Shown here one piece after another: positions 31,520-60,042 of a DNA stretch of 64,000 nucleotides (position 1 is the stretch's first letter; the number at the start of each line of letters is the position of its first letter). Position numbers and translations under genes: made by a program. A model generated the notes under the pieces. It was given only the letters and a program-made list of their open reading frames with translations. It made no database searches and had not been told where the DNA came from. The stretch covers positions 1 through 64,000 of the forward strand of contig CANIVU010000042.1 of the NCBI GenBank assembly GCA_947470805.1, written 5' to 3'. This DNA comes from Acidobacteriota bacterium. Lineage in GTDB: Bacteria; Acidobacteriota; Terriglobia; Bryobacterales; Bryobacteraceae.

Positions 31520-34500
31520 GTGCCCAAATCGAATCAGAAATTCACCCTCCGGACGCTCCTCGTCCTCCCCATCCTCGCGGGCCTCGCCCTGCTAGCCACG
31601 CTCCCGCTCACCTGGAGCGATCAACTCATCGTCGGCGTCGCGCTCTATGCCTTCTGCGTCTATCTGAACAGCACCTCAAAGAGCTACCGCGTCACGTTGA
31701 TTCTCATCGTGCTCTCGGTCTTCTGCACGGCCCGCTACACCATCTGGCGCTACCTGGAAAGCTGGCGGTTCTTCGGCGTGCAGGGCTCATCGGCCATCTC
31801 GGTCGATCTTATCTTCGTCACTCTTCTGCTGGGCGCGGAGACCTACGCCGCGCTGATCCTCGCCCTGGGCTACTTCCAGGGCCTCAAGCCGCTCGGCCGG
31901 AAACCGATTCCGCTGCCGGAGGACACCACCAAATGGCCGACCATCGACGTCTTCATCCCCACCTACAATGAGCCGCTCGACGTCGTCAAACCCACCGTCA
32001 TGGCCGCGCTCAACATGGACTATCCGCCCGACCGTTTCAACGTCTACATCCTCGACGACGGCCGCCGCGACGAGTTCCGCCAGTTCGCCGCCGACTACGG
32101 CGTCGCTCACATCACCCGTGCCGACAACAAGCACGCCAAGGCCGGCAACATCAACGCCGCCCTCAAAAACACAAGCGCCGATCTGGTCGCCATTTTCGAC
32201 TGCGATCACGTCCCCACGCGCAGCTTCCTGCAATTGACAGTCGGCTGGTTTCTCACCAATCAGAAGCTCGGCATGGTGCAAACGCCGCACCACTTCTATT
32301 CACCCGACCCGTTTGAAAAGAACCTCGATATCTTCAAAGAGGTTCCTAACGAAAGCTCACTCTTCTACGGCATCGTCCAGGACGGCAACGACTTCTGGAA
32401 CGCCACCTTCTTCTGCGGCTCCTGCGCCGTCATCCGCCGCCCGGCGCTGGAGGAGATCGGCGGCGTCGCCGTCGAAACCGTCACCGAAGATGCCCACACC
32501 TCGCTCCGCATGCAACGCCGCGGCTGGGGCACGGCCTACATCAATATTCCACAGGCCGCGGGCCTTGCCACCGCCAGCATGGCCGACCACATCGGCCAGC
32601 GCATCCGCTGGGCGCGCGGCATGGTGCAGATTCTCCGCGTCGACACGCCGCTGTTCGGCAGTGGCCTCACGCTCGCGCAACGGCTCTGCTACTTCAACAG
32701 CGTCGTCCACTATCTCTACTCGCTGCCCCGGCTCATCTTCCTCACCGCCCCGCTCGTTTATTTGTTGCTCGGCTACAGCAACATGTACGGCTCGGTGGCG
32801 ACGATTCTCTCCTACGCCCTGCCGCATCTGGCGCTGGCGACTCTCACCAACTCCCGCATCCAGGGCACCCATCGCCACTCGTTCTGGAACGAGGTGTATG
32901 AAACCGTCCTCGCCCCCTTCATCCTGCTGCCCACCATGGCCGCGCTCATCAACCCGAAGTGGGGCAAGTTCAACGTCACCTCGAAGAACGTCACCAGCGA
33001 TCGAACCTATCTCGACTGGCATGTCGTCTGGCCCTTCGCCGTTCTGCTCGCGCTCAATCTCGCCGGCATCGTCGTCGGCGTCGGCAAGGTTCTCGAAGAT
33101 CACGAAACCTGGCCAACCATGGCCATCAACATCTTCTGGTCCCTGCTGAACGTGGTCGTACTCGGCGCCTCGGTCGCCGCGGCCACCGAAAAACGCCAGC
33201 TCCGCACCTCCATCCGCGTCCCGGCCGCGATCGCCGTCGAATGTCTACTCGACGATGGCCGCCGCTACCAAACGGTCACCAGCGACATCTCCACCACAGG
33301 TCTCGCCATCGAACTCCGCGAGGCGCCCGATCTCCGCCCGGCCGACACCTTCACGCTGCGCTTCCAGCTCCGCGGCGAGGACATCGAACTGCCCGCCTTC
33401 GTCGTCAAATCCGAAGAAGGCATGCTCCGCGTCGTCTTTCACCAGTTGACGCTCGAGCAGGAAGAAAAAGTCGCCCTGCTGGTCTTCTCCGGCGCCGACT
33501 TCTGGAACCGCTGGCGCAAGACCGACGTCGACCGTCCGCTCTACTCCTTCCTGCGCATCGTCGAAATCGCCACCAAGGGCCTCATCGCCATCCCCGCCTC
33601 GCTGTTCGGCTCCATCGCCGAAGCCAGCAAAAACGGGGTAAAGGGCCCGGCCTCCAGTCGCCGCCCGGTCTATTCGGCGGTGCTGCTGTTCGTGGTCCTG
33701 TTCACACTGCTCGCCCTCCGCGCTCCCGCCCAGCCGGCGCCCATCGGCGACGAGCCTCAAATGGGCTTCCAGTCGGCCATCACCCTCCGCCAGGCGGGAC
33801 GCCCGGCGGGCATCGCCCTCCAGGGGCGCGAAGCCACGGCGAATTTTGACTTCTCCATTCCCGTCGCCCAGCTCGCCACCGAAGCGCGCCTGGAAATTCG
33901 ATACCGTCTCGCCCCGGCACTGAGTCCTGACGCCAGCCGCCTGGAGGTCGAGCTGAACGGCTCGCCGGCCGGCTCCCTGCTGCTCAAGCCCGCCGAGGGC
34001 GGCGACACCGGTGTCGCTTCGCTCCCCTTGCCTGCCGAGTTGCTCACGGCCAACAACCGCATCGGCTTGCATCTCATCGCCCAGTGCGAGGACTGCTCGA
34101 CGAAGGACGAGCGCCGGATCACCACCCAGTTGGAGGCCGCCTCGGCGGTCATCTACTCGGGCGCGATTCTCCCTGTACCCAGCCGTTTGGAGCTGCTACC
34201 GCAACTTTTCATCGACCCGGCCGCCCACGGCGTCACCCGCGTCGGGGTTCACTTCTCCTCGCCACCCAGCCGGGACCTGCTGACCGCCGCCGGCGTCGCC
34301 GCTTCCTGGTTCGGCACGCAGCCGGAGCGCATGGCGGCCGACTTCCGCGTCTCCATCGGCGAGTTGCCGCCGGGCAACCTCGTCTGGATCGCCGATCGCT
34401 CGAAGGGCGATTTGGCGGCCCTCAACTGCGCGTTGCCGCCGGGCAGCGCCGTCGCCCTCTGCCCGCATCCGGCCGATCTGGCCGCCAAGATCCTCGTCAT

Positions 34501-35824
34501 CGCCGGCGACACCGCCGAGCAGACCCTCCAATCCGCGCGCGCCTTTGTCTCCGCGAAGGGACTGAAGGGCGAAGGCCTCTCGCTACCGGCCACCCCGCCC
34601 ACGCAATTGGCCGTCTACGCCGCCCCGCGCTGGCTACCGACCGGCGAAAGCGTCCCATTCCGTAAGTTTTCGAACGCGGGCCAGTCCCGGCTCGCCGGCG
34701 CCGGCAGCACGAAGCTCTACTTCCGCCTCGCCCCGGACCTCCACTTCGCCACCCGTAGCATGGTCCCCCTGCGCACCTCCTTCCGCTGGCGCCGCATCCC
34801 GGGCTCCACGCCGGCGCGCCTGCGGGTCACCTTGAACGGCGCGCTCGTCGCCCGCCGCTCCTACCGCGGCCCGAAGGCGGGCGAGACGATCCAGGAGACG
34901 TTGCAGGTTCCGGTCTCGGCGCTCTATCCGCGCAACACTCTGACCTTCGAACTCGAATACCCCGAACTCCCGGCCAGCGTGCGGCCGGAGTTTGAGATCG
35001 ACATGGACTCCTCGCTCGACCTGCGCGACTTCGAGCACTTCACCGAGATGCCCCGGCTCGATCTCTTCGCCAAAGCGGGCTTCCCGTTCACCCGCCGCGC
35101 GGATTTGTCAGAGACCGCCGTCGCCCTCTCGGCCAACGCCTCCCCGGCGCAGATCGCCCTCGCCCTGAACGCGCTCGCCTTCCTCGCCAGCCAGACCGGC
35201 CAGGCGGCCACCTGGGTCAGCTTCATCGCCACGACTGAAATCGAGCGGTCCCGCGGCAAAGACGTTCTCATGATCGGCTCGCCCCAGGACCAGATGGATC
35301 TGCCCGTCCGCGCCGCCGCCCTCCCACTCTCCTATAGCGACGGCATTTTCCGCACGGTCGAACCGCGGCAACTGCTCAACCGCTACCTTTCCATTCCCTG
35401 GGCCGGCTACGGCAAGGAGCGCCGCCGCGCCAATGAGTTCGTCGGCCGCGAGGGCGCCATGCAGGCAGTCCTTCAGGGCGCCCGCCTCGGCGAGCGCAGC
35501 CTGGTGCAACTGCTCGCCGTCGGCGACGACGAATCCGGCCAAATCTTCCCGGCACTCGAAGCCGCCGCCGCCGAAGACAACATCTTTGGCAACCTGGCCG
35601 TGCAGCGCGCCGGCGGCTATCAATCCTTCCGCCTCGCCGACGAGGCCTATTCGGCCGGCCGGCTCGGGCCCATCCAGGCGTTCGATCACTGGATGACCCG
35701 CTATCTGCTCTTTATGCCGCTCTTTATTCTGCTCTGCGCCATACCGCTGGCGCCGCTGATCGAAGCGTTTGTGGAGCGGCGCCGCAAGGCGCGGCTGGAC
35801 TATGACGAGGAGTTGACTGTATGA
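31520..35824 (+). CDS. bcsAB: Cellulose synthase, BcsA-BcsB fusion
   Basis: This 1434-residue fused synthase polymerises UDP-glucose and translocates the glucan. It has membrane helices near residues 10-125, then a GT2 domain with DDG (near 178), DCDHV (near 230), FFCGSCAVI, TED (near 322) and QRIRW (near 360). More helices and a PilZ domain follow (RTSIR near 562, DISTTG near 588), which binds cyclic-di-GMP in this family. From about 735 the periplasmic BcsB part begins, ending in a membrane helix near 1395-1415. The start is GTG after GGAG. Similar fusions occur in acetic acid bacteria. The stop overlaps the bcsC ATG. Confidence 0.95.
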   Translation: MPKSNQKFTLRTLLVLPILAGLALLATLPLTWSDQLIVGVALYAFCVYLNSTSKSYRVTLILIVLSVFCTARYTIWRYLESWRFFGVQGSSAISVDLIFVTLLLGAETYAALILALGYFQGLKPLGRKPIPLPEDTTKWPTIDVFIPTYNEPLDVVKPTVMAALNMDYPPDRFNVYILDDGRRDEFRQFAADYGVAHITRADNKHAKAGNINAALKNTSADLVAIFDCDHVPTRSFLQLTVGWFLTNQKLGMVQTPHHFYSPDPFEKNLDIFKEVPNESSLFYGIVQDGNDFWNATFFCGSCAVIRRPALEEIGGVAVETVTEDAHTSLRMQRRGWGTAYINIPQAAGLATASMADHIGQRIRWARGMVQILRVDTPLFGSGLTLAQRLCYFNSVVHYLYSLPRLIFLTAPLVYLLLGYSNMYGSVATILSYALPHLALATLTNSRIQGTHRHSFWNEVYETVLAPFILLPTMAALINPKWGKFNVTSKNVTSDRTYLDWHVVWPFAVLLALNLAGIVVGVGKVLEDHETWPTMAINIFWSLLNVVVLGASVAAATEKRQLRTSIRVPAAIAVECLLDDGRRYQTVTSDISTTGLAIELREAPDLRPADTFTLRFQLRGEDIELPAFVVKSEEGMLRVVFHQLTLEQEEKVALLVFSGADFWNRWRKTDVDRPLYSFLRIVEIATKGLIAIPASLFGSIAEASKNGVKGPASSRRPVYSAVLLFVVLFTLLALRAPAQPAPIGDEPQMGFQSAITLRQAGRPAGIALQGREATANFDFSIPVAQLATEARLEIRYRLAPALSPDASRLEVELNGSPAGSLLLKPAEGGDTGVASLPLPAELLTANNRIGLHLIAQCEDCSTKDERRITTQLEAASAVIYSGAILPVPSRLELLPQLFIDPAAHGVTRVGVHFSSPPSRDLLTAAGVAASWFGTQPERMAADFRVSIGELPPGNLVWIADRSKGDLAALNCALPPGSAVALCPHPADLAAKILVIAGDTAEQTLQSARAFVSAKGLKGEGLSLPATPPTQLAVYAAPRWLPTGESVPFRKFSNAGQSRLAGAGSTKLYFRLAPDLHFATRSMVPLRTSFRWRRIPGSTPARLRVTLNGALVARRSYRGPKAGETIQETLQVPVSALYPRNTLTFELEYPELPASVRPEFEIDMDSSLDLRDFEHFTEMPRLDLFAKAGFPFTRRADLSETAVALSANASPAQIALALNALAFLASQTGQAATWVSFIATTEIERSRGKDVLMIGSPQDQMDLPVRAAALPLSYSDGIFRTVEPRQLLNRYLSIPWAGYGKERRRANEFVGREGAMQAVLQGARLGERSLVQLLAVGDDESGQIFPALEAAAAEDNIFGNLAVQRAGGYQSFRLADEAYSAGRLGPIQAFDHWMTRYLLFMPLFILLCAIPLAPLIEAFVERRRKARLDYDEELTV

Positions 35825-38800
35825 ACGTGCAAGGCCTGATTTCCATCCTACTGACGCTGTTTTTGGCACTCCAGGCGATCGCCCAGCCAGCAGACCCGGC
35901 GCTCACCATGCTTTCCAGCAAGGCCCGCGCGCTCGAGGTCCGCGGCCGGCTCGATCTCGCCATCAAGGCCTGGCAGCAGGTACTGTGGAGCAACCCGAAG
36001 AGCACCGAGGCGCTCGGCGCCCTGGCGCGGCTCCACAAGCAGACCGGCGAGGACGCCCAGGCGCGCGCCTATCTGGACCGGCTGCGCCGTCTGGAGCCCA
36101 ACGCCGCCATCCCGGAACCGCCGCGTCCGGCCGCCGCGCGCGACCCGCGCCTGCACTCGGCTGAGTCGCTCGCCCAGTCCGGCAAGTACGAAGAGGCCAC
36201 GCGCGTCTATGGCGAAGTGCTAGGCAACAAGGCGCCCACCGGCCCGCTCGCCGTCGCCTATTACGAAACCATTGGCGGCGTCAAAGGCCGCACGAATGAA
36301 GCCATCGCCGGTCTCGAGCGGCTCTTGCGCGCCGAACCCAATCAGGTCGACTACACTCTCGCACTCGGCCGCCTCTGCACCTACCAGCCGCAGACCCGCG
36401 CCCGCGGCATCCGCCTGCTGCAATCGATCCCCGCAAACGGCCTGCACGGCGAAAAGGCCCGCGCCGCCATCCGCCAGGCGCTCATCTGGGAGAATGGCTC
36501 GCCCGGCTCGCTCGCGCCGTTGCGCGAGTATCTGGCGCAGACCCCGGACGCCGAACTCACCCGGCTCGCCACCACCGCCGCCAGCGCCGCTACCGCAGCG
36601 CCCCGCGCGCTCACGCAGAGTCCGCAGGAGGCGCTCGGCTACACCGCGCTCAACGCGGGCGATGCCCCGGCCGCCGTCACGCACTTTGAAAAGGCCCTCC
36701 GCGAAGCCCCGCGCAGCGCCACCGCCCAGGCGGGCCTCGGCTACGCACAGATGAAACAGAAGAACTGGGTCGAAGCCGTCAAGGCCTGGGAACAGGCAGC
36801 CCGTGCCGTACCGGGCAATAAGCAGTACGCCGAAGCGCAGGCCGAATCCCGCTTCTTCCTCGCCATGGGCGAAGGCACGGCCGCGCTCCGGCAGAACCGC
36901 GTCGGTCCGGCCGCCGCGCAGTTCCAGACCGCGCTCGCCCTCCGTCCGGCCAGCCCCGACGCCCAGCGTGGCCTCGCCGGCGCCTGGATGGCGGCCGGGG
37001 AAAACACGCAGGCCGCGGCGCTCTTCCAGCAGCTCACGGTCACCGAAAACAATCCCGCCGATTGGCGCAACCTGATCGCCGCCCGGGCAAAAGCCGGGGG
37101 GCAAAAAGAAGCCCTCGCCCTCTGGGCCAAGGCCCCGGCCACGGTCCGCGAAGGCCTCCGCGCCGACACCGAACTCGGGCTCCTGCTCGCCGGCTCCTAT
37201 CTGAACGAAGGCCGCGACAAAGACGCGGTCGCGCTCTATCAGGCGGCTGTCTCGGCCGACGGCTCGAACGTTGTCGCCTGGGAAGGACTTCTCGCCGCCC
37301 TCATGGCGGCCAAGGAAGAGACGCGCGCCTATGAGGCCCTCTCGTCGATGCCCGCCAAGGTCTACGCCGAAGCGGCCGACCGGCCCGGCTTCCTCCGTTC
37401 GGCGGCGCTGTTGCAGATGCACCTGGGCCGCTACGACGTCGTCGAATCACTCCTGCTCAAATGGATCGCCCGCGCCGGCGCGGGTAACGTACCGGCCGAT
37501 GTGCAGACCCAACTGGCCAGCATCTGGCTGAAGCAGGGCAAGGCCCCGGAAGCCGAAAAGCTGCTGCGTGAACTGCTCGCCCGGGACACGGCGGCAAGCG
37601 ACGGCTTCCGCCCCGAGGCCACCCGCCAACTCCTCGCCGCCCTCCAGGCCCAGCGCCGCTCGGCTGAAGCGCTGCTTGAGTCCCGCCGCATCTCCCCCAT
37701 CGTGCAGGCCCAACTCCAACAGGACAACGACTATCTCTCGCTCATCGCCGCCATCAACAGCGAAGCCGGCAACCAGGGCGAAGCGCTGCGGCTGGTCCAC
37801 GAAACCCTCGCCCGCTTCGAGCAGAAGGGCGAACGCCCACCCGCCCAGATGCGCCTCCAACAGGCGTGGCTGCTGTTGAATGCCAACGCCGATGGCCGCG
37901 AACTCTTCAGCGTCCTCAAATCGCTATCAACCGACACCACGCTCTCCGCCGATCAGCGCACAAGCTACAACGAGCTCTGGTCGGTCTGGGCCCAGCGTCA
38001 GGCCGATGAGGCCCGCCGCTCCGGCAAGCCCGATCGCGCCACCGCCATCCTCGCCGAAGCCGTCCGCATGCTGCCCGCCGACGGTCGCCTGCGCGGCGCC
38101 TACGCGGCCTCGCTCAAAGAATCCGGCGACACGAAGAAGGCGCTCGCCGCCTACAAACAGTGGGGGCTCACCGGCGCCAGTGTCGACGACTACTCCACCG
38201 CCATCGGCACCGCCATGGCTGAACGCAGCGATCTGGCGGCCAAGTGGCTCGATGACGCCATGAAGCGCTTCCCCTCCGAACCCAAGGTGCTTGGTCTTGC
38301 CGCCGACATTTACGCGCAGAAGGGCGATTTCGCGCGGGCGGAAATGTACTATCGCAGCGCGCTCGCCGTGGCCGGCCGCAAGCCCAAGGCCGATACCGCG
38401 CCGCTCTTCGCCGGCCGCCAACCCGGCAACGCCCTCGGCCGGCTCATCGTCGGCGAACAAACCGAAACCGCCACCGCCCCCGAACCCGGCGCCGACCGTC
38501 TGGGCCGCGTCCTGAGCGGCGACGCCAATGCCGACACGCTGCCCGCTTCCGGCCCCTTCGCCAACTCGCTCGTCAATCAAAAGAGCGAAAGCGACCGCAT
38601 CGCCGATCGCCTACAAGCCATCACGGCGCGCAACACGCCCTCCTTCGATGTCGCCACCACCATCAACTCCCGCAGCGGCACCCCCGGCTTCGACCGGCGT
38701 ACGTTGCAGGAGACGGAAATTGGCGTCAGCAAAGTACTCGGCAACGCCGTCCGCGCCAGCCTCATCGTCCGGCCCACCTCCATCCGCACCGAAGCCGCCG

Positions 38801-39738
38801 ATGGGACCAGCGAGACATTCCGTCTCGGCCTGCTCCCGGTGGGCTCCACCTTCGACGCGCAGAGCGTCTCCGGCATGGCCGCCGAGTTCCAGCTTTCGAG
38901 CAACGATTTCGGCCTCCGCGTCGGCGCGAGCCCCCAAGGGTTCCTCGTGAAGAACTACATCGGCGGCCTGCGCTTCCGTCCCGCCGGCGGCCACATCACC
39001 CTGCTGCTCAACCGCGACAACGTCAAGGACAGCTTGCCCTCCTTCGCCGGCCGCCAGGACCCGATCACCAAGCAAACCTGGGGCGGCGTTGTGTCGAACC
39101 TCGCCCAGGTCACCGGCAACTGGGGCGACGAACAGGCGGGCTTCTACCTCTCCGGCGGCTACGCTATCGTCACCGGCAAAAACGTCCAGACCAACCGCGC
39201 CTTCAACGGCAACGGCGGCAACTACTGGCGCGTGCTGCACAACGCCTCCGGCGCCCTCACCGTCGGACTCAACCTCACCGGCATGGCCTATGAAAAGAAT
39301 CTGCGCTACTACACCGCCGGCCAGGGCGGCTACTTCAGCCCGCAGCGCTTCTACATGTTCAACGTCCCGCTCACGTGGCGCGGCACCTACGGCCCTCGCT
39401 TCCGCTATGTGGTCAGCGGCGGTCTCGGTACGCAGCACTTCCGCGAGGATCGCTCACCCTACTTCCCCACCATGGCCGCACTGCAAAACGCCGTCGCGCT
39501 TTACTACCCCGGCCAATCGCAAACCGGCGCCTCGTACTCGGTCGATTTCCGCGGCATCTACCAGCTCTCCGAGCAGTGGTTCCTGGAAAGCTACTTCAAC
39601 CTGAACAACGCCCGCAACTTCACCGCCCAGTCGGCCGGCTTCACCTTGAAGTACGGCTTCCGCCCGCGGCCCATCGGCACCGAACCCGGTCCGCCGTCGG
39701 TCCCCGATTGGAAGGGCGCGCAACCGTTCCTGCCGTAG
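35821..39738 (+). CDS. bcsC: Cellulose synthase outer-membrane export protein BcsC
   Basis: This 1305-residue protein has a signal peptide (about residues 1-21) and many TPR-like helical repeats (about 30-860; AWEQAARAVPGNKQYAEAQA is one). A C-terminal beta-barrel follows (about 960-1300) with alternating aromatic residues and WFLESYFNLNNARNF. This matches BcsC, which guides cellulose through the peptidoglycan and outer membrane. A linker of about 100 residues links the two. The ATG overlaps the bcsAB stop (ATGA), so translation is coupled. Confidence 0.93.
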   Translation: MNVQGLISILLTLFLALQAIAQPADPALTMLSSKARALEVRGRLDLAIKAWQQVLWSNPKSTEALGALARLHKQTGEDAQARAYLDRLRRLEPNAAIPEPPRPAAARDPRLHSAESLAQSGKYEEATRVYGEVLGNKAPTGPLAVAYYETIGGVKGRTNEAIAGLERLLRAEPNQVDYTLALGRLCTYQPQTRARGIRLLQSIPANGLHGEKARAAIRQALIWENGSPGSLAPLREYLAQTPDAELTRLATTAASAATAAPRALTQSPQEALGYTALNAGDAPAAVTHFEKALREAPRSATAQAGLGYAQMKQKNWVEAVKAWEQAARAVPGNKQYAEAQAESRFFLAMGEGTAALRQNRVGPAAAQFQTALALRPASPDAQRGLAGAWMAAGENTQAAALFQQLTVTENNPADWRNLIAARAKAGGQKEALALWAKAPATVREGLRADTELGLLLAGSYLNEGRDKDAVALYQAAVSADGSNVVAWEGLLAALMAAKEETRAYEALSSMPAKVYAEAADRPGFLRSAALLQMHLGRYDVVESLLLKWIARAGAGNVPADVQTQLASIWLKQGKAPEAEKLLRELLARDTAASDGFRPEATRQLLAALQAQRRSAEALLESRRISPIVQAQLQQDNDYLSLIAAINSEAGNQGEALRLVHETLARFEQKGERPPAQMRLQQAWLLLNANADGRELFSVLKSLSTDTTLSADQRTSYNELWSVWAQRQADEARRSGKPDRATAILAEAVRMLPADGRLRGAYAASLKESGDTKKALAAYKQWGLTGASVDDYSTAIGTAMAERSDLAAKWLDDAMKRFPSEPKVLGLAADIYAQKGDFARAEMYYRSALAVAGRKPKADTAPLFAGRQPGNALGRLIVGEQTETATAPEPGADRLGRVLSGDANADTLPASGPFANSLVNQKSESDRIADRLQAITARNTPSFDVATTINSRSGTPGFDRRTLQETEIGVSKVLGNAVRASLIVRPTSIRTEAADGTSETFRLGLLPVGSTFDAQSVSGMAAEFQLSSNDFGLRVGASPQGFLVKNYIGGLRFRPAGGHITLLLNRDNVKDSLPSFAGRQDPITKQTWGGVVSNLAQVTGNWGDEQAGFYLSGGYAIVTGKNVQTNRAFNGNGGNYWRVLHNASGALTVGLNLTGMAYEKNLRYYTAGQGGYFSPQRFYMFNVPLTWRGTYGPRFRYVVSGGLGTQHFREDRSPYFPTMAALQNAVALYYPGQSQTGASYSVDFRGIYQLSEQWFLESYFNLNNARNFTAQSAGFTLKYGFRPRPIGTEPGPPSVPDWKGAQPFLP

Positions 39739-57660: not shown

Positions 57661-58206
57661 ATGGCAGCTGTGCGGGAACCAGCTTACAGACGGATTGCGG
57701 AGAAGCTCCGAAAGACCATCGCCGACGGACGCATGGCGCCGGGCGCGCGGTTGGCGTCGGAACGCGCGCTGGCCAGCCGGCATGGCGTCAGCCTGATGAC
57801 GGCCCGCCGGGCGATGGTGGAGTTGGAGCGGATGGGATTGGTGACGCGGCGGATCGGGGCGGGGTCGTTCGTGGCGCCGGCGGGGAGCGGTATCCGGCGG
57901 CTGCGGGATCCGCATGAGGAGTTTCATGCACCGCATTGCACGCCCATCGATGGCGCGCGGGAGTGGCGGGCGGGCAAGGTCCTCGTCGTCGTGGAGCGGG
58001 TCACGTTGACAGAGGAAGGGGTACTCGGCACGCGGCCGTTGCTGGAATTCCTGGGCGAGGCGGCGGTACACGCGGCCGAAGAGATCTGGGCAGAGGGCGA
58101 ACACCTGCGAGTACGGCAGACCATCTATTCCGATGGGCAACAGGTATTAGCCGTGCGGGAGATGGAGGTCCACGGGCGACGCGTCGAAGGCTGGGTCGGA
58201 CGATAG
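57661..58206 (+). CDS. GntR-family transcriptional regulator
   Basis: This 181-residue protein has an N-terminal winged helix of the GntR type: YRRIAEKLRKTIADGRMAPG (residues about 9-28), ASERALASRHGVSLMTARRA and a wing ending GAGSFVAPAG. The C-terminal part (about 85-181) is a short UTRA-like ligand domain with RQTIYSDGQQVLAVREMEV. Its effector is unknown. It is divergent from the antiporter with only 10 bases between starts, and it lies 36 bases before two PilZ/J-domain genes on the same strand. It may control either or both. Confidence 0.88.
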   Translation: MAAVREPAYRRIAEKLRKTIADGRMAPGARLASERALASRHGVSLMTARRAMVELERMGLVTRRIGAGSFVAPAGSGIRRLRDPHEEFHAPHCTPIDGAREWRAGKVLVVVERVTLTEEGVLGTRPLLEFLGEAAVHAAEEIWAEGEHLRVRQTIYSDGQQVLAVREMEVHGRRVEGWVGR

Positions 58207-58242: not shown

Positions 58243-59121
58243 GTGGAAAGACGAACTGGGACCGAGCGGAGGGAGTCGCCAAGGCAGAGAGTGCCGGGCG
58301 GCCACAAGATCACCTTCTGGATCGAGGATAAGGACGGTTCGTGGACGCGGCAGGACGCCGAAATTGGCGACCGGTCGGACACCGGCGTCGGGCTGCTATT
58401 GGCTAAAGAAGTAGAAGCCGGCCAGAACGTCATGGTGGAGGGGGACGGGTTCTCCGGTGGCTCCGGTGGACGGCAGAAGGGCAAGATCTGCTGGTGCCGT
58501 CCCACGGTCGACGGGCGCTTCCGCGCGGGGATCGATCTGTCCATGGCGGCAAACGGCGGAGTCAAGGTGGACGAGAACTTCGTGGACTACTACGAGGTGA
58601 TGGAACTCAGCCCCAGCGCCAGCCTCGAAACGATTCACCGCATCTACCGCATTCTGGCGCAACGCCTGCACCCGGATAATAGCGAGACCGGCAGCAACGA
58701 GGCGTTCAAGCAATTGGTGAGCGCCTACAAGATTCTTTCGGACCCGGAGCAGCGGGCGTCGTTCGACTCCACGCGCGGCGTCAAACAGCAGGTCCATTGG
58801 CGCGTGTTCGACCAGAACTCGGCAACCCCGAGCGTTGAACAGGAACAGATGAAACGGCGCGGCGTGCTGAAGGCGCTTTACTTGAAACGGCTGCGCGAAG
58901 CGGAAAACCCGGGGATGAACATGATCGAAATGGAGGCGCTGCTGGGGACGCCGCGGGAGCACCTGGACTTCACCATGTGGTTCCTGAAGGAGCAAGGATG
59001 GGTCGTCCGGACCGATAGCGGACGGTACTCCATCACCGTGAAGGGCGTCGAGCAGGCGGAAAAGTTGCAGGTCTGGGCGCCGCAGCCAACCGAGCATCTC
59101 CAATTGGAGCCGGCCTACTAA
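58243..59121 (+). CDS. PilZ - J-domain - winged-helix-like fusion protein (copy 1)
   Basis: This 292-residue protein starts at GTG after GGGA. The N-terminal PilZ-like domain (about 10-100) has both cyclic-di-GMP motifs, RESPR (RxxxR) near 11-15 and DRSDTG (DxSxxG) near 43-48, with the GVGLLL strand and RFRAGIDL ending. A DnaJ J-domain follows (about 115-180) with the essential HPD in QRLHPDNSETG. The C-terminal part has a winged-helix-like pattern, GTPREHLDFTMWFLKEQGWV to SITVKGVEQAE. It is inferred to link cyclic-di-GMP to a Hsp70 partner. The next gene is a paralogue 15 bases away. Confidence 0.8.
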   Translation: MERRTGTERRESPRQRVPGGHKITFWIEDKDGSWTRQDAEIGDRSDTGVGLLLAKEVEAGQNVMVEGDGFSGGSGGRQKGKICWCRPTVDGRFRAGIDLSMAANGGVKVDENFVDYYEVMELSPSASLETIHRIYRILAQRLHPDNSETGSNEAFKQLVSAYKILSDPEQRASFDSTRGVKQQVHWRVFDQNSATPSVEQEQMKRRGVLKALYLKRLREAENPGMNMIEMEALLGTPREHLDFTMWFLKEQGWVVRTDSGRYSITVKGVEQAEKLQVWAPQPTEHLQLEPAY

Positions 59122-59136
59122 AGTTTCGGCGGTCCC

Positions 59137-60042
59137 ATGCCGATGGAGCCATCAGTGAATACCGCAAAGGCTCCAGAACGACGAAAAAAGACGCGCGGCG
59201 AGAAGCAGCCAACACAATCGGCGCAGCTGTGGCTGGAGCGGCACGACGGAACCTGGCAGAAGCTGGCGGTTCAGGTACAGGATACCGGGGAGTACGGCGT
59301 CGGACTTCTCATGGGGGAGAAGATTCGCGACGGGTCGGCAGTGATGCTGGAAGGCGCGGGGTTAGCGGCGCCGGACGGTGGGCGCCCACGTGGCCGGGTG
59401 GCGTGGTGCACAGCGGTCTCACCCGGGGTTTTCCGGGCCGGGATTTCAATGGAAGACGGACGGGAAGAACGCGGTTCTGGCACGGCCGAGTTTGAAGACT
59501 TCTACGAGACGCTGGAAGTGAATCCCGTCGCGACGGCGGATACGATCCACAAAATCTATCGGGTACTGGCCCACCGCATGCATCCGGACAACCTGGAAAG
59601 CGGCAGTGAAGAGCAGTTCAAGAAACTGGTCCGGGCTTACCGTGTGCTCTCCGATCCGGAGCAGCGAGCGGCGTTCGATGTCGAGCGTTCACGGGTCACC
59701 ACCAAACAGTGGCGGATCTTCGACCCGGAATCGGCGGCCCCGGGCCTGGAACAGGAACAGCGAAAACGCCGGGCAATCCTCGCGGTGCTCTACCACAAGC
59801 GCATGCGCCAGCCCGAAAAATGCGGAATTGGCATCCCGGAGCTGGAAGACCTGCTGGCCGTCCCTCGTGAACATCTGGAATTCCCGCTCTGGTTCATGAA
59901 GGAACAAGGCTGGGTACTCCGCAGCGATGGCGGACAGCACTCGATCACGGCAAAGGGCGTGGATTACGCAGAGTCGACCGGGGCATGGCAGCCGCCGATG
60001 TCGCGGAACTCGGGACTTCTTTCGGCAGGGGTGCCGCAGTAA
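59137..60042 (+). CDS. PilZ-like - J-domain - winged-helix-like fusion protein (copy 2)
   Basis: This 301-residue protein is a paralogue of the preceding gene, with similar domains in the same order. The N-terminal motif is RRKKTR, but the second PilZ motif reads DTGEYG, with Gly in place of Ser, so cyclic-di-GMP binding may be lost. The J-domain keeps HPD in HRMHPDNLESG. The C-terminal module (VPREHLEFPLWFMKEQGWVL) is also kept. It probably arose by tandem duplication and then diverged. The 3' end overlaps the antisense frameshifted hydrolase-like gene by 98 bases. Confidence 0.78.
   Translation: MPMEPSVNTAKAPERRKKTRGEKQPTQSAQLWLERHDGTWQKLAVQVQDTGEYGVGLLMGEKIRDGSAVMLEGAGLAAPDGGRPRGRVAWCTAVSPGVFRAGISMEDGREERGSGTAEFEDFYETLEVNPVATADTIHKIYRVLAHRMHPDNLESGSEEQFKKLVRAYRVLSDPEQRAAFDVERSRVTTKQWRIFDPESAAPGLEQEQRKRRAILAVLYHKRMRQPEKCGIGIPELEDLLAVPREHLEFPLWFMKEQGWVLRSDGGQHSITAKGVDYAESTGAWQPPMSRNSGLLSAGVPQ

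Follow-up and report, generated by a model that had tools for sequence, protein, structure and literature searches.

Two adjacent genes in a 64,000-nucleotide stretch of a contig from a soil-dwelling Acidobacteriota bacterium (hereafter the window) raise the question of whether the second messenger c-di-GMP is linked directly to the Hsp70 cycle, so that one protein would let a lifestyle signal direct protein quality control. A sequence-only reading of the window had described the two genes as paralogues that follow a GntR-family regulator, and both open reading frames were found. Copy 1 (58243..59121, + strand, GTG start) encodes a 292-residue protein with PilZ, J-domain and winged-helix regions, as judged from its open reading frame, a Pfam J-domain match and an AlphaFold2 (AF2) model. 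Copy 2 (59137..60042, + strand, ATG start) encodes a 301-residue paralogue with a PilZ-like domain followed by the same two regions, as judged from its open reading frame and a Pfam J-domain match. The genes are separated by 15 bp, and 36 bp separate copy 1 from the upstream gene for a 181-residue GntR-family regulator (57661..58206, + strand; Pfam GntR E 5e-17), of which Pfam recognised the HTH alone and matched no effector domain. A promoter scan of the operon found none. The nearest named match for copy 1 was from a Ca. Sulfopaludibacter metagenome-assembled genome (MAG; 96% identity), and the window belongs to the same genus as Ca. Sulfopaludibacter. In comparison with the corresponding locus of this MAG (L034), dN/dS was 0.04 in copy 1 and 0.05 in copy 2, so that strong purifying selection acts on both copies and both are real genes. 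The dN/dS of the GntR gene was 0.08.

PilZ is a domain that often senses c-di-GMP. The Pfam PilZ model scored 21.4 bits in copy 1, just below the cut-off of 22.5 (residues 8-100; 58264..58542, + strand; E 3e-4), and gave no match in copy 2. Relatives at loci L078 and L084 passed the cut-off, and Pfam PilZ was found in 22 of 45 family N-domains (best E 5e-12). A profile search of solved structures with HMMs of the N-domain and the winged helix gave no meaningful match, so that a fold comparison was needed. In the AF2 model of copy 1 the N-domain is a six-stranded barrel, and Foldseek matched the model to VCA0042 with c-di-GMP (E 3e-4), BcsA, PA0012, Alg44, MrkH and YcgR. The confidence of this model was modest (mean pLDDT 64; pTM 0.36), and because of the low pTM the full-length model was not used for the domain arrangement, which stays unpredicted. 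The N-domain of copy 2 (residues 14-106; 59176..59454, + strand), modelled alone with AF2 (pLDDT 71), matched the PilZ structures of VCA0042, BcsA, PA0012, Alg44 and YcgR, with VIA-align Z values of 9.5 against the BcsA PilZ domain and 8.8 against VCA0042. On these models both copies carry an N-terminal PilZ-fold domain, which bears out the PilZ-like N-terminus proposed from sequence even though Pfam was below its cut-off in one copy and silent in the other. One top Foldseek match, flavin reductase 5zyr, was rejected as a non-specific alignment with an rmsd of 17 A across the whole model.

The c-di-GMP motifs were found as the sequence-only reading had given them, and RxxxR, which it had named for copy 1, is present in both copies. 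Copy 1 contains RxxxR (R10-R14; 58270-58284, + strand) and a DxSxxG motif in the form DRSDTG (58369-58386, + strand). In copy 2, RxxxR is still there (R16-R20; 59182-59196, + strand) and DTGEYG takes the position of DxSxxG (59281-59298, + strand). Thus the copies share their predicted fold with the PilZ c-di-GMP receptors VCA0042, YcgR, Alg44 and BcsA, and copy 1 also shares both motifs; they differ from these receptors in being fused to a J-domain and a winged helix and, in copy 2, in having no motif Ser. All six copy-1 orthologues kept RxxxR and DRSxxG, including R10, R14, D43, S45 and G48, although the PilZ domain otherwise falls to 55-59% identity in three of these genomes (G149, G192 and G113). 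The six copy-2 orthologues all kept RxxxR and the D/N and G positions, whereas the Ser was replaced by G, A or N. The resulting asymmetry in the motif Ser (6/6 copy-1 versus 0/6 copy-2 orthologues) is well supported.

The asymmetry had been taken as a hint of one binding and one non-binding partner, a reading that is not established. Myxococcus xanthus PixB has two PilZ domains with RxxxR and without the motif Ser, and the protein binds c-di-GMP in vitro (PMC8316039). We therefore dropped the reading that copy 2 cannot bind c-di-GMP; its missing Ser is a difference and no proof of non-binding. Conversely, M. xanthus PlpA has the motifs and is reported not to bind (PMC8316039), so that the motifs of copy 1 are no proof of binding. 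Copy 1 has the full c-di-GMP motif set, and copy 2 has an altered pocket and probably a different affinity or mode.

Among the N-domains of the wider family, R10 was kept in 42/45, the D/N position in 43/45 and the Ser in 22/45. Both motifs are complete in only 18 of the 45 N-domain-bearing members, so a role common to the whole family cannot lie in c-di-GMP input. The 27 members with incomplete motifs, together with PlpA, could be taken to mean that PilZ is a protein-interaction or dimerisation module only, with no c-di-GMP binding in either copy. The same would go for the similarly sized N-domains of the J-domain and winged-helix proteins at L079, L080 and L094, which Pfam did not recognise as PilZ and which are possibly eroded PilZ domains. 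We consider this improbable, because the five motif residues were kept in every copy-1 orthologue while the surrounding domain diverged.

Both proteins had been credited with a J-domain with an intact HPD, and this was the case. Pfam DnaJ (PF00226) matched residues 115-175 of copy 1 (58585..58767, + strand; E 9e-18; HPD at 58669-58677, + strand) and residues 121-181 of copy 2 (59497..59679, + strand; E 1e-17), and Foldseek aligned the copy 1 domain with Thermus thermophilus DnaJ at 41% identity. DnaJ-type zinc-finger or C-terminal domains were absent, as Pfam matched the J-domain only in both copies and the NCBIfam DnaJ models matched essentially over the J-domain only. Pfam also gave no HSP70 match, to either the nucleotide- or the substrate-binding domain of DnaK, in either copy. 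By this domain content both are class C J-domain proteins, which have the HPD, lack the zinc-finger and beta-sandwich domains of DnaJ and carry other added domains (PMC8215388).

The copies differ from class C proteins in that several DnaK-positioning residues are replaced. Five basic residues position E. coli DnaJ on DnaK, namely R22, K26, R27, K48 and K51 (PMC8215388), although they are not demanded of every class C protein. Both copies kept K26 (as R) and K48, as well as the equivalents of Y25 and F47, whereas the other three of the five were replaced (R22 by H, R27 by I/V and K51 by V). Across the family, the R22 position is usually occupied by H or Q and the K51 position by V or L, and at R27 only hydrophobic residues occur (I, L, M, V and once A). 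The canonical DnaJ of the same genome (contig C183) keeps IRKAYRRLARKYHPD, with R22 and R27 retained. In contrast, HPD is present in 61/64 family members, and the F47 equivalent was kept in 64/64, Y25 (as Y or F) in 64/64 and K26 (as R or K) in 62/64. The concern that the J-domain might lack its Hsp70 contact residues is thus justified for R22, R27 and K51 but not for HPD, Y25, K26 and F47. This pattern suggests that the family J-domain is likely active but differently positioned on DnaK; it may match one particular Hsp70 or be aided by tethering. The loss of three positioning residues throughout the family or the greater part of it would also fit a J-domain that no longer drives Hsp70 and has become an interaction domain, making the proteins PilZ/winged-helix scaffolds. 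In three of the 64 members (L014, L015 and L026:1129-1971) HPD is replaced by HPE or DPD, and there the J-domain may indeed be dead. For the family at large we find this distinctly improbable, as the retention of HPD, F47, Y25 and K26 is that of a working J-domain under selection.

The winged-helix-like C-terminus had also been recognised correctly. In the AF2 model of copy 1 this domain (residues 198-276; 58834..59070, + strand) superimposed on NadR with a VIA-align Z of 11.5 and 0.9 A over 66 residues, and its best structural neighbours were NadR, MarR, MepR and OhrR (Z about 11); the model thus places it as a MarR-type winged helix. The copy 2 domain (residues 204-282; 59746..59982, + strand) was identified by alignment to copy 1 and the family (profile match E 1e-46). 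No Pfam HTH family reached its cut-off on the C-terminal domain. Compared with L034, the winged helix of copy 1 had 0 amino-acid changes at a dS of 0.84.

Because these neighbours are MarR-family DNA binders, and because the PilZ transcription factor MrkH is among the fold matches of the N-domain, the proteins could be c-di-GMP-responsive transcription factors. The winged helix would then contact operators in the way of MarR proteins, PilZ would modulate this binding as it does in MrkH, and DnaK, engaged by the J-domain, would take the protein off the DNA or remodel it there. The copies share the C-terminal fold of the MarR-type proteins NadR and MepR but differ from them in having no Pfam HTH above cut-off, a near-neutral charge and a nearly invariant recognition helix. 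The net charge of the winged helix is +1 in copy 1 and 0 in copy 2, with a family mean of -0.5, which argues mildly against DNA binding. Moreover, paralogues whose settings are as unlike as the GntR operon, Tad pilus genes and purC have almost the same putative recognition helix, PREHLEF..WYL, which points to one common partner rather than to many operators. Winged helices frequently bind proteins, and the sequence pattern favours a common partner that is most simply a protein. We therefore regard transcription factors as possible, if on the unlikely side.

A short Leu-rich tail lies some 11-17 residues past the winged helix. Its general form is [LM][LI]x[AP]; it reads LQLEP in copy 1 (59098..59112, + strand) and LLSA in copy 2 (60016..60027, + strand). 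Either form was present in 39/63 sequences, compared with 5.2 expected when each tail was shuffled, a contrast that is not a probability because the sequences are related. Several members have a tail similar to NRLLLTG, the model DnaK peptide, for example NRLLPAA (L033) and DRLLTAR (L031). DnaK prefers Leu-rich cores with flanking positive charges (PMC8215388). We hypothesize from this resemblance that the tail binds DnaK.

A search with a winged-helix profile found the domain in 136/200 Bryobacteraceae genomes and 53/76 genera, the family label of this set having been assigned via named relatives. Among 396 genomes drawn from the phylum, 16 had the domain, 13 of them outside the family. The constant core of the family sequences is the J-domain, the winged helix (consensus E..kR..L..LY.kR...PG....E.E.LLG.PREHLEF.LWYLKE.G...R.D.GR..IT.KGV..aE) and the Leu-rich tail. 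An N-terminal PilZ module may or may not precede this core, and many members consist of J-domain and winged helix alone (about 180-220 residues). One PilZ-bearing form comes from beyond the class (L084; Pfam PilZ E 2e-8). A single-protein scan of genome contigs returned three genus members only, and tblastn against plasmids returned ordinary DnaJ J-domains only. From these data we conclude that the copies belong to a widespread conserved family with a J-domain and winged-helix core and are no local oddity. The proposal of a likely undescribed architecture must be narrowed accordingly. We found no description of the PilZ, J-domain and winged-helix family in the literature searched, which did not extend to the J-domain survey of Barriot et al. 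2020, but PilZ-DnaJ proteins have been noted in M. xanthus.

In a tree, the copy-1 sequences and the copy-2 sequences each formed a well supported group of their own, with six members drawn from the window, the Ca. Sulfopaludibacter MAG and genomes G113, G149, G192 and G197. The pair is therefore older than these species; it has been kept in five genus genomes, including that of the window, in addition to the MAG. Seven other genomes of the genus have one copy at the same locus with the GntR gene upstream, and four of the seven have a further copy elsewhere (G004, G078, G161 and G185). A GntR homologue lies directly upstream at ten related loci besides the window and is absent in G192.

The genome contains 12 GGDEF domains, four other PilZ matches (at the Pfam level and including the one in bcsA) and two long DnaK matches. 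With these GGDEF and PilZ domains c-di-GMP is probably made and read, and the gene content makes c-di-GMP signalling very likely in this organism. Cellulose genes had also been reported, and a fused bcsA-bcsB open reading frame with a PilZ domain (31520-35824; 1434 residues) is present in the window; bcsC comes after it, and the cellulose region covers 31520-39738. The present data tie copy 1 and copy 2 to no particular c-di-GMP output.

The reading that we prefer, with a probability of about 0.5, is that both proteins are class C DnaK-recruiting adaptors with a PilZ c-di-GMP input and winged-helix docking. The winged helix would serve for docking and hold the adaptor on a partner common to the family, either a protein complex or DNA, and the J-domain would bring DnaK to the docked site and trigger ATP hydrolysis. 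The flexible tail, resembling a DnaK-binding peptide, might help the J-domain step. PilZ would be an added input through which c-di-GMP affects recruitment or docking, and the upstream GntR gene would probably control the operon. The genes, their domains, folds, motifs and conservation, the age of the pair and the synteny are observed here, whereas the binding of c-di-GMP, the stimulation of DnaK, the partner, the function of the tail and the control of the operon are inferred. The scheme is supported by the near-universal HPD, the constant three-part core, the PilZ fold of both copies and the motifs of copy 1. The persistence of the pair as two clades, its low dN/dS, the copy-1 winged helix unchanged from L034, the near-invariant recognition helix, the GGDEF, PilZ and DnaK genes of the genome and a PilZ-DnaK precedent (PMC10313047) also support it. 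Arguing against it are the replaced R22, R27 and K51 equivalents, of which the DnaJ on C183 keeps the first two, the minority of N-domains with both motifs, the modest AF2 confidence and the silence of the M. xanthus PilZ-DnaJ/K deletions described below. A more specific version is doubtful: a Bryobacteraceae-centred set of co-chaperones in which c-di-GMP gates Hsp70 recruitment to a fixed winged-helix partner, the tail is a built-in DnaK ligand, and the two copies are a c-di-GMP-responsive and a differently tuned subunit.

The only studied parallel that we found is the PilZ-DnaK pair CsdK1 and CsdK2 of M. xanthus, which keep CdbS stable and couple c-di-GMP to death under heat stress (PMC10313047). 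Like the copies, these are two paralogues in which PilZ is fused N-terminally to a component of the Hsp70 system and one of which has lost part of the c-di-GMP motif. CsdK1 misses the first half of the motif, whereas copy 2 misses only the Ser of the second. In contrast to the copies, they contain Hsp70 itself and have neither a J-domain nor a winged helix (PMC10313047). Four PilZ proteins of M. xanthus carry a DnaK or DnaJ domain; those with DnaJ resemble the copies in joining the two domains on one polypeptide, and no winged helix is mentioned for them (PMC8316039). Deletions of all M. xanthus PilZ genes, including those for PilZ-DnaJ/K proteins, caused no defect in motility, EPS or development except for plpA, pixA, pixB and pkn1 (PMC8316039). 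Thus the idea of a c-di-GMP/Hsp70 fusion is not wholly new, and the direct link from c-di-GMP to a chaperone that was suggested for this locus is plausible from structure and conservation. The family suggests a little-noticed type of signal-controlled chaperone adaptor that is common in an abundant, little-studied bacterial group. The proteins are of a size convenient for biochemistry, and the natural pair, of which one copy has the motif Ser and the other lacks it, offers a ready-made control.

Several members of the family differ in setting or composition. PilZ-less J-domain and winged-helix genes adjoin Tad/Flp pilus genes (cpaF, tadB and tadC) at seven loci (L050, L051, L052, L053, L122, L123 and L124) and a prepilin peptidase gene at five others (L054, L113, L114, L115 and L120); these neighbours suggest a surface-pilus role for that subgroup. 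Another PilZ-less subgroup (seven loci, L037-L042 and L045) lies directly upstream of a purC-like gene, assigned from the start of its sequence and not by profile. In genus g47, a gene for a parvulin-type prolyl isomerase lies directly upstream of the PilZ, J-domain and winged-helix genes (L048, L049 and L076), and two of these three loci have a tandem pair of their own. The genome of the window also encodes a 182-residue protein with a diverged winged helix and no J-domain (L097; G000:C84:22454-22684; profile E 4e-11), to which Pfam gave no match. Finally, the J-domain and winged-helix protein at L088:1213-2010 has a long C-terminal tail, which is basic and in which DRR-like motifs are repeated.
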